NCBI GenBank assembly: GCA_031279205.1
Contig: JAITIX010000026.1
Location: 1 to 33,883, forward strand
Direction of reading: 5' to 3'
Length of the DNA: 33,883 nucleotides
Source of the DNA: Treponema sp.
GTDB lineage: Bacteria; Spirochaetota; Spirochaetia; Treponematales; Breznakiellaceae
Shown in pieces: positions 4,267 through 33,198 of the stretch (positions are counted from its first letter, which is position 1; each line of letters opens with the position of its first letter). Position numbers and translations under genes: made by a program. The notes beneath the pieces are model-generated. The model did not search any database and was not told the origin of the DNA. It saw nothing but the letters and a program-made list of their open reading frames with translations.

Positions 4267-4620
4267 GCACCTATTCATCGTGCAGGTACATCTATTCGTC
4301 GTGCAGGTACATCTATTCGTCGTGCAGGTATATCTATTTTGCTATACAGGTATATCTATTCGTCGTGCAGGTATATCTATTCGTTGTGCAGGTACATCTA
4401 TTCGTCGTGCAGGTATATCTATTTTGCTATACAGGTACACCTATTCGTCGTGCAGGTACATCTATTCGTCGTGCAGGTATATCTATTCGTCGTGCAGGTA
4501 TATCTATTTTACTATACAGGTACACCTATTCGTTGTGCAGGTACATCTATTCGTCGTGCAGGTATATCTATTCGTCATGCAGGTATATCTATTCGTCGTG
4601 CAGGTACATCTATTCGTCGT
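4267..4620. repeat. Array of 17 tandem 21/22-bp units with an 85-bp higher-order period
   Basis: Units begin at 4267 (degenerate, 19 bp), 4286, 4307, 4328, 4350, 4371, 4392, 4413, 4435, 4456, 4477, 4498, 4520, 4541, 4562, 4583 and 4604 (partial). The plain unit starts GTACATCTATTCG or GTATATCTATTCG and ends GTGCAG. Units 4, 8 and 12 (4328, 4413, 4498) are a distinct 22-bp form containing TTTTGCTATACAG or TTTTACTATACAG. They recur exactly every 85 bp, so the array grew in blocks of four units. There are no spacers, so it is not CRISPR. All plus frames happen to be open, but the 22-bp units shift frame every 85 bp, so protein coding is unlikely. Confidence 0.95.
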
Positions 4621-6569: not shown

Positions 6570-6614
6570 GCTACAGCCACCTGTAGCGCTGGTACAGCTA
6601 CCTGTAGCGCTGAG
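6570..6614. repeat. Two-unit 21-bp tandem repeat with hairpins
   Basis: Units 6573-6593 and 6594-6614 share 18 of 21 bases. The first contains the perfect hairpin GCTACAG-CCAC-CTGTAGC (6570-6587); the second contains TACAG-CTAC-CTGTA. It lies between metY and clpP, which are divergent. No T-run follows, so it is not an obvious terminator. Confidence 0.7.
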
Positions 6615-10325: not shown

Positions 10326-11764
10326 TAATACGCTCCTCGTCCTCGAAACACCGCAACAATGGTTTGATACAGTATCCATATATCAAGCCACACCGACCAG
10401 CTTTGCAGATAGTAGGTGTCAAACAGCACACGCTCGTTATAGTCCGTATCAGAACGCCCGGATACCTGCCACAGTCCGCTTAAGCCCGGCTTAACGGAAA
10501 AGATACGCTTGAAGTCTTCACCATACTTTGGCACTTCGTCTTGAACAATGGGACGTGGACCCACAAGGCTCATTTCACCCTTGAGTACGTTGATAAGCTG
10601 GGGGAATTCGTCAAGGCTGGTGCGCCTGAGAAAGCGTCCCACTTTGGTAACACGGGGATCGTTCTTGATCTTGTGGCTTGCTTCCCATTCTTCACGCATG
10701 GTGGGATTTTCGGCAAGCAGTCTCTGTAGAAGCGCATCAGCGTCAATCACCATCGAGCGGAACTTGTACGCCTTAAAGGGCGTGCCGTTACACCCAAGCC
10801 GGCTGTGTCCGTATAATACAGGTCCTGGGGAACTCACTTTGACCACGAGGGCAAGGAGTAAAAGCACTGGCAGTATAACCAGACCAACGATTATCGTGAT
10901 AACAATGTCCATAAAACGTTTTATAGCAAGGTTCCAGTCCATCTTCAAACGGTGGCTGGTAACAAAACCCAGAAGCCCGTCGAAGTCCCGCACCGTCATC
11001 CAGATATTTGTGGCGCGAAAGAAGTCGGGAATCAGCACGTTATACCTGAACGCCGATACCGAGTAGTTGAGCAGGCGCGTCAGTTCCTGCTCGTTAAGAC
11101 CTTGCATTGCCACTATCGCCATCTTGATATTGTAGCGTCGCACCAGTTTCTCCCCCAAGTTTAGGTCGTACAAGATCGGCACCCCGCGATAGGCATCAGC
11201 TTCAGACTCTTCAGACAGGATCAGCACCGGCACGTAGCCGCACTTAACGCTGTCAAGCAGACGATCAATCACCAGCTTACCCAGCGCTCCACTTCCGTAG
11301 ATAACCGCTGGTATGCCGCCCAAGCGCTTTTTCCGCAGCGCGTAGTGTGTAGCGCTCCGACACATAAGCAGTACAAAGGTAGAAAACACGAAGCTGATGG
11401 CAAAGGCGGCTGATATGGCGTCAAGTTGCTGGTTTTCTATGAAGCGGGATAGGATGATGCCGCCATGCACCATGAACGATGCGGTGGTAAAGCACTTGAA
11501 TTCTTCCGACGGCGCGAGCGATACCCCCGGATACAGATTGTATAGCTGAAAGATGAGCAGAAAAACCGGCACATAAGGCCAGTAGGTAACAAAGGACTTG
11601 AAGTTAATGATGGAATGGTCGTAGAGGTTGACGACAAAAAAGCCGGTGCCAAAGGAAAGCATTACCGCGATGAGGTCTGAAAAGACAAGGGCTATGGCTA
11701 TGATAGCAGAACTGGTATGATGATACCTCATACGATACCATGTATCAAATTCAGAAAGTGTCAT
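10325..11764 (-). CDS. Undecaprenyl-phosphate sugar-phosphate transferase (WbaP-type)
   Basis: A 479-residue membrane enzyme that transfers a hexose-1-phosphate from its UDP-sugar to undecaprenyl phosphate, the first step of exopolysaccharide or surface glycan assembly. The N-terminal half has about four membrane helices (about 18-48, 62-80, 95-107, 118-138) and then a Rossmann-like CoA-binding_3-type domain (about 150-275). The C-terminal catalytic domain (280-479) has the re-entrant membrane helix, YKFRSMVIDAD, RRTSLDEFPQLINVLKGEMS, GPRP, KPGLSGLWQVSGRSD and a terminal GRGAY. The sugar cannot be read from sequence. It has a leaderless-type promoter. A 111-bp stretch of this gene is duplicated at 12757-12867. 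Polysaccharide partner genes are absent, so it stands alone with the exported protein downstream. Confidence 0.92.
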   Translation of the reverse strand: MTLSEFDTWYRMRYHHTSSAIIAIALVFSDLIAVMLSFGTGFFVVNLYDHSIINFKSFVTYWPYVPVFLLIFQLYNLYPGVSLAPSEEFKCFTTASFMVHGGIILSRFIENQQLDAISAAFAISFVFSTFVLLMCRSATHYALRKKRLGGIPAVIYGSGALGKLVIDRLLDSVKCGYVPVLILSEESEADAYRGVPILYDLNLGEKLVRRYNIKMAIVAMQGLNEQELTRLLNYSVSAFRYNVLIPDFFRATNIWMTVRDFDGLLGFVTSHRLKMDWNLAIKRFMDIVITIIVGLVILPVLLLLALVVKVSSPGPVLYGHSRLGCNGTPFKAYKFRSMVIDADALLQRLLAENPTMREEWEASHKIKNDPRVTKVGRFLRRTSLDEFPQLINVLKGEMSLVGPRPIVQDEVPKYGEDFKRIFSVKPGLSGLWQVSGRSDTDYNERVLFDTYYLQSWSVWLDIWILYQTIVAVFRGRGAY

Positions 11765-11770
11765 TCAAGA

Positions 11771-11799
11771 ATCATCGTCAAAAGACTTGGTTTTGACAA
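11771..11799 (-). promoter_or_regulatory. Promoter of the sugar-phosphate transferase, with an overlapping forward -35
   Basis: Minus strand TTGTCA (11794-11799), 17 bases, GATGAT (11771-11776), then six bases to the ATG. The same box read on the plus strand is TTGACA (11793-11798), followed 17 bases later by TATGCG (11816-11821). The region is thus a back-to-back promoter whose forward arm no longer leads into an intact gene. It is copied at 12868-12921. Confidence 0.6.
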
Positions 11800-11835
11800 G
11801 AACCATGTTTTCTGATATGCGTTCTTGCGCGAGGG

Positions 11836-11908
11836 CTTGCTTTATAAAAGTAAACACGAAGGCTATCGTGGTTTATGATTCCCTTGACGAGAGTAGCCAT
11901 GTAATCGC
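11836..11908 (+). pseudogene. Flavodoxin 5' fragment, copy 1
   Basis: 11836-11855 matches the DNA upstream of the flavodoxin gene (compare 14315-14335). 11858-11908 matches its codons 2-17 (KAIVVYDSLDESSHVIA in translation). The start codon, Shine-Dalgarno and everything after codon 17 are missing. It is fused to the leader of the following gene. Confidence 0.7.
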
Positions 11909-11926: not shown

Positions 11927-12592
11927 ATGGCACTAGCAGAGCAGTCAGGACAGTCGGAGAGGGGACTGACGCGTCAGGATGTCTTGGCAATGTTTCAGGA
12001 GACGGACAGGCGGTTTCAGGAAAGCAAGGAAGAACACGACCGGATGATTGCGGAGGCGGAGAAGCGGTCTCAGGAGGCGGAGAAGCGGTCTCAGGAGTTA
12101 GACAAGGTGATCAGGGAAATGGCTGTGCGGTTTGACCGGCTGGCGAAGAATGTTGGGGGTCTTAACCGGTCTATAGGAGAACTGATAGAAACCTTGATTG
12201 CCGTGCGGCTGTGGGAAAAATTTGCCGCGTATCCGTATCAGCTCAAAAGGGCTTATCAACGGGTTCCCATTTATGACGAATGGCATGAACTGCAGACAGA
12301 CATAGACATTCTGCTTTCTGATACGGAATGGTGTATGGCGGTTGAAGTGAAACGGGAAGCGGATGATAAAGACGTAGACCACCATCTCAAGCGCATGGAG
12401 CTGATACGCCGGTATCCGCCGCTGGAGGTAGTGGGTAAAAAGCTGATTGGAGCAATCGCTGGCGGAATAGTGTCGCCCGATACTGTTAAGTACGCCCATG
12501 AAGTAGGCTTTTTTGTGCTTACACTCGCGGGGGAATCGGTTGCCCTGCTGGATACTCCGGCAGGTTTTGTCGCCAGAGAGTGGCAGGTCTGA
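11927..12592 (+). CDS. Coiled-coil protein with a PD-(D/E)XK nuclease-like domain (DUF3782-like)
   Basis: 221 residues. An acidic, lysine-rich coiled coil (about 15-75), containing a perfect heptad duplication EAEKRSQ, leads into an alpha/beta domain. There TDIDILL (Asp125/Asp127) and AVEVKRE (Glu140-x-Lys142) form a PD-(D/E)XK-type constellation. Such proteins are abundant in cyanobacteria and some spirochaetes, often annotated DUF3782; their function is unknown and nuclease activity here is unproven. AGGAGG is placed well before ATG 11927. The gene is intact but sits inside the rearranged mosaic, flanked on both sides by flavodoxin fragments, which suggests it arrived with or triggered the rearrangement. 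Confidence 0.8.
   Translation: MALAEQSGQSERGLTRQDVLAMFQETDRRFQESKEEHDRMIAEAEKRSQEAEKRSQELDKVIREMAVRFDRLAKNVGGLNRSIGELIETLIAVRLWEKFAAYPYQLKRAYQRVPIYDEWHELQTDIDILLSDTEWCMAVEVKREADDKDVDHHLKRMELIRRYPPLEVVGKKLIGAIAGGIVSPDTVKYAHEVGFFVLTLAGESVALLDTPAGFVAREWQV
12053..12094 (+). repeat. Perfect 21-bp in-frame tandem duplication
   Basis: 12053-12073 and 12074-12094 are identical and encode one extra coiled-coil heptad in the nuclease-like protein. The identity implies a recent event. Confidence 0.9.
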
Positions 12593-12609
12593 GGGATGGA
12601 TAATGAAAG

Positions 12610-12755
12610 GATGTAAGACGCGTTTATATCCAACCTGCTCGGCGACTTTATGAAAGCATCGTAGTTTACGATTCTTTTGACGAGAGCAGCCATGTAATCG
12701 TGGAACGGATCAAGACAACCTTGGGCGCGGATACGCTGAGGCTGGAGCTTGTGGA
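12610..12755 (+). pseudogene. Flavodoxin 5' fragment, copy 2
   Basis: Matches 14344-14495 of the full-length copy. It holds the upstream palindrome (decayed to GATGTAA...TTTATATC), ATG at 12650 without its Shine-Dalgarno, and codons 1-36 (ends LRLELVE). The coding match stops abruptly where transferase DNA of opposite orientation begins. Codon 8 is GAT here, against TAG in the full-length copy. Confidence 0.85.
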
Positions 12756-12756
12756 G

Positions 12757-12867
12757 CGTAGTGCGTAGCGCTCCGGCACATAAGCAGTACAAAGGTAGAG
12801 AACACGAAGCTGATGGCAAAGGCGGCTGATACGGCGTCAGGTTGCTGGTTTTCTATGAAGTGGGATA
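12757..12867 (-). pseudogene. Fragment of the sugar-phosphate transferase gene
   Basis: 111 bp aligning without gaps to 11341-11451 (internal coding region, RFIENQQ...ALR) with a handful of substitutions. It joins directly to a copy of 11767-11820, so 315 bp of the original (11452-11766) is missing at the junction. No start or stop is retained. Confidence 0.92.
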
Positions 12868-12921
12868 AAGAATCATCGTCAAAAGGCTTGGTTTTGACAA
12901 GAACCGCATTTTCTGATATGC
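12868..12921. repeat. Duplicate of the transferase promoter region
   Basis: 54 bp matching 11767-11820 with a few changes. It keeps both arms of the back-to-back promoter. The forward arm now drives the CLC gene; the reverse arm points into the broken transferase fragment. Confidence 0.92.
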
Positions 12922-12928: not shown

Positions 12929-14269
12929 ATGAGAAAACGGCAACTTCACAAACAGACGCGCCATGCGAGTTTGGCGCGCGCCGCACTTCGCCACTGGTAT
13001 CATTCTCCTTTATTGCTTGTGCTGGAAAGCAGCCTTGTCGGTTTTGTCGCCGGCTTGGTGGTAGTCGCCTTCCGCTATGTTCTGGGTCAAGCTGACAATC
13101 TCAGAGTCTGGCTGTATAACAATCTTTTTCGTATTTCTACGCTTTGGCTTGTAGTTTGGGCTGTTTTTCTCACGCTGATCGGGCTATTTTTCGGTTGGGC
13201 TATTAAAGTCAGACCCATGATCAAGGGAAGTGGCATACCTCAGGTGAAAGGCGTCCTGCTTGGTTATGTTCAGATGCGCTGGATAACGGAACTGCCGCTC
13301 AAAATCATTACCAGCACGCTTGGCTTGGGCGCGGGGCTCTCAATGGGACGTGGAGGCCCATCCCTTCAGATTGGTTCGTATGTTGGCTTGGGTATGCTTC
13401 CTCTGTTCCGTCGTTCCAAAGAAGAAGAGAAAATCCTGATTGTCGCTGCCTCGTCTGCGGGGATCGCGGCGGCATTCAGTGCGCCACTGGCCGGCGTTCT
13501 GTTCGCGCTTGAGGAGCTGTGGCCATCGTTTTCGCCCCTGTTTATCGCCAGCGCCATGGCCGTGTCCATCGCAGCGGAAGCCACAGCCGCGCTTTTCTTA
13601 GGCTCAGGACCGGTCTTCTCCTTCGCGGGCATCATCACGCTGCCGCTTCAGAATATGCACTGGGTGGTTCTTCTGGGAATAGTTTGCGCGATTCTTGGCG
13701 ATGTGTTTAAACGCGCCCTCTACGTTTCGATGGATGTGTATAAGCGCTTTGACATTCCGCTCAGGTTCCGTCCACTTATTCCCCTGCTTTTGTCCATTCC
13801 TCTTGGCTTGTGTCTGTTTGATGTGCTGGGCGGGGGGCATAACCTGATTGAAGCGATTGCCCGCGGCGGCTATTCACTACGTTTGCTCCTGCTGCTTTTT
13901 GTCTGCAAGCTCGTGTTTACCGCGATCTGCTGTGGTTCTAGCACTTCTGGTGGCATCTTTTTGCCCCTGCTTGCCTGTGGCGCGCTTGTTGGCGCGGCAA
14001 TGGGCGAGGCGCTGGAACTGGGCGGCTTTATCAACGATAGCCAGAAGCTGAACTTCATCATACTCGGCATGGCAGCCTTTTTTACCAGCGTGGTCAAAGC
14101 GCCAATCACGGGTATGGTACTGATTCTTGAAATGAGCGGCAATTTTAGCAATATGGGGAACCTTGTGCTGGTCTGTCTGAGCGCCTTTGTCATGTCCAAC
14201 CTCATCATGTCCCATCCTGTGTATAGTGTACTGCTTGAACGAATGTTGCCCCCGCAAAAAACGCATTGA
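12929..14269 (+). CDS. CLC-family chloride channel/transporter lacking the gating glutamate
   Basis: 446 residues with about ten hydrophobic stretches in the inverted-repeat CLC fold; a homodimeric inner-membrane anion pathway. Family motifs are GSGIP (100-104), the helix-N motif GGIFLP (341-346), conserved Glu195/Glu196 in FALEELWP (equivalent to the internal proton glutamate region), and Tyr432 in HPVYSVLL (inner chloride-coordinating Tyr). The GREGP motif reads GRGGP (140-144), so the external gating glutamate is Gly142. In studied CLCs, loss of this residue uncouples chloride from protons, so channel-like conduction is inferred. No C-terminal CBS domains. The start is supported by a promoter six bases upstream. 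A strong hairpin ends the transcript. Confidence 0.93.
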   Translation: MRKRQLHKQTRHASLARAALRHWYHSPLLLVLESSLVGFVAGLVVVAFRYVLGQADNLRVWLYNNLFRISTLWLVVWAVFLTLIGLFFGWAIKVRPMIKGSGIPQVKGVLLGYVQMRWITELPLKIITSTLGLGAGLSMGRGGPSLQIGSYVGLGMLPLFRRSKEEEKILIVAASSAGIAAAFSAPLAGVLFALEELWPSFSPLFIASAMAVSIAAEATAALFLGSGPVFSFAGIITLPLQNMHWVVLLGIVCAILGDVFKRALYVSMDVYKRFDIPLRFRPLIPLLLSIPLGLCLFDVLGGGHNLIEAIARGGYSLRLLLLLFVCKLVFTAICCGSSTSGGIFLPLLACGALVGAAMGEALELGGFINDSQKLNFIILGMAAFFTSVVKAPITGMVLILEMSGNFSNMGNLVLVCLSAFVMSNLIMSHPVYSVLLERMLPPQKTH

Positions 14270-14301
14270 GTGTGTGAACCGAATGTTCGGTTCACACACT
14301 C
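14268..14301 (+). terminator. Terminator of the CLC gene
   Basis: GAGTGTGTGAACCGAA (14268-14283) and TTCGGTTCACACACTC (14286-14301) form a perfect 16-bp stem that overlaps the stop codon. It is followed only by TTGTT, a weak U-run. Confidence 0.75.
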
Positions 14302-14343
14302 TTGTTCAGTAGACTTGCTTTATACAAAAGTTAAATATAAAAA

Positions 14344-14364
14344 GATGTAAATTGCGTTTACATC
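14344..14364. promoter_or_regulatory. Operator-like palindrome upstream of flavodoxin
   Basis: GATGTAAA (14344-14351), TTGCG, TTTACATC (14357-14364): a perfect 8-bp inverted repeat 25 bases before the ATG. The equivalent site in copy 2 (12610-12630) is partly decayed. The regulator is unknown; flavodoxins are often controlled by iron or redox repressors. Confidence 0.55.
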
Positions 14365-14388
14365 CAGTATGCTCATTAAGGAGGCTTT

Positions 14389-14871
14389 ATGAAAGCTATT
14401 GTGGTTTACTAGTCCCTTGATGGGAACAGCCATTTGATTGCGGAACGGATCAAGGCAACGCTAGGCGCGGATACGCTGAAGTTGGAGCTTGTCGAAAGTA
14501 TGCCAAAACAAAGGGTTATGAAGCTGTTTCAAGGTGGGAAACAGGTACTCTTCGGTGATATGCCCGCGCTCAAACCGTACCAGCTCGATGTTTACCAGTA
14601 CGAGTTGCTCATACTCGGCGGGCCTGTGTGGGTTGGTTCCCCTGCGCCTGCGCTTATGAACTTTCTCCAGCAAACCAAGTTTAGTGGCAAAAAGGTCGCG
14701 CTTTTCTGTTGTCATGGCGGTGGTAAAGGCAGGACATTCTCCAAACTGCGGGACGCGCTCAGCGCTAACACCATTCTGGGCGAGATTGATTTTCCTAACG
14801 TAAGCAAACAGGATACCCAAAAACTGAACGCTAAACTGGACGCCTGGCTCAAGGATATTTCTACGCGCTGA
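14389..14871 (+). pseudogene. Flavodoxin, full length but interrupted by TAG at codon 8
   Basis: Starting at ATG 14389, with AAGGAGG in good position, the frame reads MKAIVVY-TAG-SLDGNSHLIAERI and then runs open to TGA 14869-14871, about 160 codons. Flavodoxins are FMN electron carriers. The N-terminal strand and phosphate-binding loop (VYxSLDGNSHLIA), GGPVWVGSPAPALMNFL and FCCHGGGKGRTF mark the fold. Flavodoxins usually have Tyr, Asp or Ser at this position; TAC or TAT to TAG is a single change. A TTG at 14434 could restart translation, but that product would lack the FMN phosphate loop. The rest looks well preserved, so inactivation is recent or the stop is read through. A sequencing error is the other explanation. 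Confidence 0.85.
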
Positions 14872-14885
14872 TATATCTGATATAC

Positions 14886-14925
14886 GGTAGTAGGCTCGTA
14901 CTGGTTCTGGTACGAGCCTACTACC
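14886..14925. terminator. Strong hairpin after flavodoxin
   Basis: GGTAGTAGGCTCGTAC (14886-14901), 8-base loop, GTACGAGCCTACTACC (14910-14925): a perfect 16-bp stem starting 15 bases past the stop. There is no clear U-run, but the position suits a terminator. Confidence 0.7.
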
Positions 14926-15270
14926 CGTTTGCGCCATAGGGGCCTGTTGCGTTTCTCCCTGCGGAGTAACAAAACCCAAAAAGTCAGCTACCATAACCTT
15001 ATGAACGTGGGATTTGTGGATGTAGACTGGAACACCCCTTGCTGTTTCTGGTTGAAATTAAGAGGAATAATTACTCGGAATGGGAGTAGAGTAATAGGGA
15101 CTCATTTGGTAGTAGTAGAAGCATAAGGAAGCTATAAAACATAGCAGAATTAGATTACGGATAAACGGCACATAACTTGATTCGTTGCCGTGGTCTGTAT
15201 GTTTCACTGCTAAAGCGGCTTCTGGGTTCCGTTCCACGATCTATCAAGGAAATCCTGTTCTCAAGCTCTC
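14926..15270. other. Gene-free stretch between flavodoxin and eno
   Basis: No convincing gene. Open frames (for example 65 codons at 14929-15126 plus) lack ribosome sites and family resemblance. The only structure noted is the inverted repeat ATTACTC/GAGTAAT (15070-15076, 15089-15095). The stretch may hold worn remnants of a lost gene. Confidence 0.6.
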
Positions 15271-15312
15271 AAAAACCAAAAGCCGTCTCAAAGGAGACGG
15301 CTTTTGGTTTTT
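15271..15312. terminator. Bidirectional intrinsic terminator of eno
   Basis: AAAAACCAAAAGCCGTCTC (15271-15289), loop AAAG, and its perfect 19-bp complement (15294-15312), with T-runs in both directions, 12 bases past the eno stop. Confidence 0.95.
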
Positions 15313-15323
15313 ACCCTAGTTCT

Positions 15324-16649
<1,326 letters not shown>

Positions 16650-21773: not shown

Positions 21774-21815
21774 AAACGGGTTCCCGTTCAACCCAAACGG
21801 GTTCCCGTTCAACCT
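21774..21815. repeat. Two-unit 21-bp tandem repeat of a palindrome
   Basis: Units 21774-21794 and 21795-21815 differ at one base. Each contains AACGGG-TT-CCCGTT, a 6-bp inverted repeat. It lies between the argG terminator and the 3' end of the convergent permease gene. Confidence 0.85.
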
Positions 21816-32979: not shown

Positions 32980-33198
32980 CTAGCGCCCCGCCAAGCGATT
33001 AACAACAACCGCCAAGCCGCAGAAAACAACCGCTAAATCACAGACAAAAACCGCTAAGCCGTAGACAACAACCGCTAAGCCGCAAACAAAAACCGCCAAG
33101 CCGCAGACAAAAACCGCTAAGCCACAGACAAAAACCGCTAAGCCGCAGACAAAAACCGCCAGACCGTAGACAAGGAGGCTTTTATATGACTTATACAC
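32980..33198 (-). CDS. Open frame through the second array: hydrophobic heptad repeat
   Basis: GTG 33198 to TAG 32980-32982, 72 residues built of GLAVFVC-type heptads after a short basic start (MYKSYKSLLVYG). It would be one or two membrane segments. No Shine-Dalgarno precedes it. In the four outer units (33088-33171) every base change between units is silent in this frame, which is odd for non-coding DNA, but the sample is small. I keep it as a low-confidence candidate. Confidence 0.2.
   Translation of the reverse strand: MYKSYKSLLVYGLAVFVCGLAVFVCGLAVFVCGLAVFVCGLAVVVYGLAVFVCDLAVVFCGLAVVVNRLAGR
32983..33171. repeat. Array of nine tandem 21-bp units
   Basis: Units start at 32983 (degenerate), 33004, 33025, 33046, 33067, 33088, 33109, 33130 and 33151. 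The consensus begins AAAAACCGCTAAGCCG and ends CAGAC. There are no spacers. Immediately after the array is AAGGAGG (33172-33178), a few bases before a six-codon frame. The rest of 32936-33500 holds no recognisable gene. Confidence 0.95.

Follow-up and report, generated by a model that had tools for sequence, protein, structure and literature searches.

An in-frame TAG codon in a flavodoxin-like gene of a Treponema draft genome: a probable recent gene loss

A flavodoxin-like gene in a draft genome of Treponema sp., a gut spirochaete, carries a TAG in frame at its eighth codon, and the question raised by this locus is whether the gene has been lost, whether the stop is read through, or whether the base is an artefact of the assembly. 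The window, i.e. the whole stretch of DNA that was analysed (33,883 nucleotides), belongs to contig C129 of a genome (G000) of 2.54 Mb, which is distributed over 150 contigs and is 81% complete. The best explanation, which we consider probable, is that a dispensable flavodoxin gene acquired a nonsense mutation very recently. Among the three options left by a first-pass annotation (very recent loss, rescue by read-through, or assembly error), the first is favoured, while read-through is disfavoured by the presence of RF1, by a search that found no CTA tRNA and by the use of TAG in this genome.

Structure of the interrupted gene

Read directly from the sequence, the whole frame comprises 160 codons (14389-14868), starts with an ATG at 14389 and is closed by a TGA at 14869-14871. 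The description of a TAG at codon 8 in an otherwise intact flavodoxin holds, both in the sequence itself and by comparison with homologues: 152 codons are open between the TAG and the TGA, where about 150 had been announced, and a Shine-Dalgarno sequence can be read upstream of the ATG, as had been stated. The upstream palindrome, which had also been described as preserved, is real in the window, but it is not conserved in the same form in the two congeners that possess the gene (Table 1), and it is for this reason a weak mark of a preserved promoter. A promoter scan of 14200-15350 found no sigma-70-like site. Just 3' of the flavodoxin stop lies a perfect inverted repeat (14886-14925) with 16-base arms and an 8-base loop, with no T run after it.

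Table 1. Positions of the features discussed, in coordinates of the window.
Feature	Position	Strand	Remarks
Second, shorter decayed copy of the flavodoxin 5' end	11858..11908	+	GAT at codon 8
Decayed copy of the flavodoxin 5' end	12603..12755	+	77% identical to 14337-14495; GAT at codon 8
Upstream palindrome GATGTAAA-5-TTTACATC	about 14345..14365		Imperfect in G001, absent from G004 (alignment)
Shine-Dalgarno AAGGAGG	about 14379..14385	+	Read from sequence
Flavodoxin-like gene, probable recent pseudogene	14389..14871	+	160 codons and TGA, interrupted at codon 8
In-frame TAG, codon 8	14410..14412	+	Sole interruption of the frame
SLDGNS, codons 9-14, phosphate-loop region	14413..14430	+	3' of the TAG, 5' of the next start codon
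145-aa ORF if restarted at TTG	14434..14871	+	Without first strand, without phosphate loop
Codon 42	14512..14514	+	Arg in window; Gly in G001, G004 and each of the 12 outgroup rows
Codon 82	14632..14634	+	Val in window; Ala in G001, G004 and each of the 12 outgroup rows; part of the PVWAGS motif
21-bp tandem arrays	4271-4620, 33002-33173, 6572-6612, 12052-12097, 21774-21814

The residues encoded after the TAG (152) match three Pfam families, Flavodoxin_5, Flavodoxin_4 and FMN_red, with scores that are only just above the cut-offs (PF12724, 28.3 with a cut-off of 27; PF12682, 25.5 with 24; PF03358, 27 with 24), and the intact orthologue of the congener G001 is above cut-off for PF12682 and PF12724. 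The nearest solved chain to the G001 protein by sequence is 2mwm_A (E 1.8e-9, residues 2-130), annotated as a putative trp repressor binding protein; the same protein scores far too low to be named by NCBIfam (43.3 bits for PRK07116.1, which requires 198). The likeness to the short flavodoxin-like proteins of these three families consists of the Pfam matches and, for the G001 orthologue, of the match to 2mwm_A, whereas the window copy departs from them by its stop at codon 8, by Arg in place of Gly42 and by Val in place of Ala82.

The flavodoxin loop S-x-x-G-N-S/C corresponds to codons 9-14; in flavodoxins, this is the loop that binds the FMN phosphate. The first strand and this loop are not in one translated frame, the TAG being located between them, and the next in-frame start after the TAG is the TTG at 14434 (codon 16). 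Translation might restart at this TTG, or the seven-codon frame might serve as a leader, to give a shortened protein with another role. A frame of 145 amino acids does remain open, but its product would have neither the first strand nor the phosphate loop that full-length homologues retain, the loss of the loop having been correctly foreseen, and later residues at invariant sites are changed too; we regard a shortened functional protein as very unlikely.

Orthologues and the ancestral codon 8

A search of 58 genomes, among them that of the window, gave matches to the flavodoxin at E ≤ 0.001 in 24, some of the matches being weak. The genus is represented by four further genomes, of which G001 and G004 possess the same 160-codon gene intact (89% and 86% identity, respectively); the TAG is premature relative to these 160-aa orthologues, and since they are open across the same frame, this is not a chance ORF. 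An alignment was composed of the window copy, G001, G004 and 12 other homologous loci (the outgroup rows), with weak, partial and contig-end-cut (L013) matches left out. Codon 8 is a Tyr codon in both G001 and G004, so that a single base separates the TAG of the window from the codon of its sister species. The ten outgroup rows with a letter in this column all display Tyr or Phe, and for the remaining two of the 12 the DNA reads Tyr.

The comparison with relatives that the first-pass annotation had proposed finds a sense codon at this position throughout, but does not support the GAT that had been put forward as original. GAT, encoding Asp, is indeed present in both decayed copies of the 5' end (11858-11908 and 12603-12755), as had been claimed; it comes from these fragments, which have further changes in common and do not represent the ancestor.

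Constraint and possible decay after the stop

Counts of nonsynonymous and synonymous changes unique to one branch were 8 and 8 for the window, 10 and 13 for G001, and 12 and 8 for G004, and these counts and the pairwise dN/dS values agree in showing no rate excess of the window branch over its sisters. As the window branch is not faster, any loss would be recent, with little time passed; the rate test neither proves decay nor excludes it. Only 11 of the 160 alignment columns are invariant when both congeners and every outgroup row that has a letter are considered. Two of the eight residue changes unique to the window (the stop aside), G42R and A82V, are located in these columns, compared with none of the 18 changes unique to G001 or G004 (Fisher p = 0.086). 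This excess, although small, is suggestive of decay but does not prove it. The PVWAGS motif to which Ala82 belongs presumably borders the flavin, as would be expected from general flavodoxin structure.

These observations also bear on the quality of the base itself. The TAG could have arisen from an erroneous consensus or base call, or from a minority strain's base in the metagenome assembly, in which case the gene would be intact in the population. Such an origin is consistent with a single base making the stop in a frame that is otherwise open, with the provenance of this base from one draft genome of the fragmentation and completeness given above, and with branch counts that look like those of a gene under selection. 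Against it stand G42R and A82V, which also hit invariant positions, and the state of the neighbouring genes: when ten window genes were compared with the congeners by tblastn (a set without enolase and the next two genes, and with stops disregarded where the hit was to an antisense ORF or the stop lay 5' of a start codon), a stop within coding sequence was found only in the flavodoxin. The nine other genes were clean, which argues that errors are not frequent in this region, and we consider an assembly error unlikely, although it is the chief rival of the preferred explanation.

Reading of TAG in the genome

Were the TAG read through or suppressed, a full-length flavodoxin would be produced, and if this lineage truly suppressed TAG, every annotation of the lineage would be affected. 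The frame 3' of the TAG is preserved and has a normal codon usage (score 0.172, with a gene mean of 0.166), as this reading would predict, but the genome argues against it. RF1 (prfA) is present in G000 (527.8 bits with a cut-off of 423.25). A search with RF00005 yielded 37 tRNA genes, and the check for suppressor tRNAs that had been suggested, carried out with ARAGORN on the RF00005 neighbourhoods, detected a CTA anticodon in none of the 37, the anticodon of tRNA-Tyr being GTA; as the genome is 81% complete, a suppressor tRNA may remain in its missing part.

The use of stop codons was sampled in 19 contig pieces (307,110 bases, the window included), which contained 200 non-overlapping ORFs of at least 150 amino acids. 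TAA terminates 85 of these, TGA 70 and TAG 45. In-frame open extensions of at least 100 amino acids follow TAA in 13 of 82 cases, TGA in 4 of 70 and TAG in 8 of 44; they are no commoner after TAG than after TAA, and are probably in-frame downstream genes. On this sample, with RF1 present, no CTA tRNA found and TAG as an ordinary terminator, genome-wide recoding of TAG was rejected. The base following the TAG of codon 8 is T, and a T after a stop codon is usually taken as a strong termination context.

The locus shares with known cases of UAG recoding (suppressor tRNA, pyrrolysine, code reassignment) only the in-frame UAG itself. It differs from them in that its genome encodes RF1, employs UAG as a common terminator and has no CTA anticodon among the 37 tRNA genes found, and in that the homologues carry plain Tyr or Phe instead of a special residue. 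Production of full-length flavodoxin by read-through or suppression is thus most improbable. A newly fixed but leaky stop, from which a little full-length flavodoxin would be made by near-cognate decoding as from a low-dose allele, seems to us just as implausible. When a draft genome shows an isolated in-frame TAG, caution is due before it is taken for recoding.

Gene neighbourhood and probable dispensability

The gene order in the window is ClC, flavodoxin, enolase. In G003, enolase directly follows ClC with 117 bases between them and no flavodoxin at the junction, and no flavodoxin match was found in that genome; in G002, another gene follows ClC. A Flavodoxin_4 search of G000 for another flavodoxin able to replace it found no second match. 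The flavodoxin gene is most likely dispensable in the lineage of the window.

According to the preferred explanation, a single-base nonsense mutation would have converted the Tyr codon at position 8 of a once-functional short flavodoxin into TAG. Translation from the preserved ATG would end after seven residues, as a consequence of which no flavodoxin would be made, and the lineage, which can do without the gene, would carry it as a very young pseudogene. We infer that termination at codon 8 is efficient, that the organism truly has this base and that the function is lost. The event is most likely gene loss of an ordinary kind, and nothing indicates that this bacterium inserts an amino acid at the TAG of codon 8. 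The locus resembles recent bacterial nonsense pseudogenes in that a single stop interrupts a frame that is open elsewhere, sister species keep the orthologue intact and the gene is patchy in the genus, and it shows nothing that would set it apart from them; it stands as a single record of the loss of a redox-carrier gene with a patchy distribution among relatives. In the titles and abstract openings consulted, no pseudogene or recoding precedent for this gene was found, which is no proof of absence.

Gene fragments and repeats in the surrounding DNA

The region 12603-12921 is a mosaic of neighbouring genes, composed of a piece from the flavodoxin 5' end (12603-12755, 77%), a piece from the inside of the sugar transferase gene (12756-12867, corresponding to 11340-11451, 95%) and a piece from the upstream region of the latter (12868-12921, corresponding to 11767-11820, 93%). 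The transferase and ClC genes are divergent and directly adjoining in G001, G002, G003 and G004. In the window, a 221-aa coiled-coil protein is encoded between them (11927-12592), which is also between the two flavodoxin 5' fragments; it has no Pfam match above cut-off and no NCBIfam match. Its family is multi-copy, with 9 matches in G000, 21 in G001, 6 in G002, 9 in G003 and 9 in G004. In-frame stops within relatives of this protein, TAG in the closest ones, were considered as a recoding lead, which was dropped because in the five loci read the stop is terminal and located two residues before the end of the query.

Tandem arrays with a unit of exactly 21 bp account for 22 of the 41 arrays in 307 kb of the window genome, their unit sequences being mostly unrelated, and 17 of the 22 lie outside ORFs of at least 200 amino acids, though such ORFs cover 78% of the bases. 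The part of the literature covered held no description of such arrays, the search giving only insect mitochondrial work. The same period was found in 10 of 11 arrays in pieces of G001, G002, G003 and G004 and in two of five arrays in 80 kb from other genera, and slippage or copying of a length-specific kind may lie behind these arrays.
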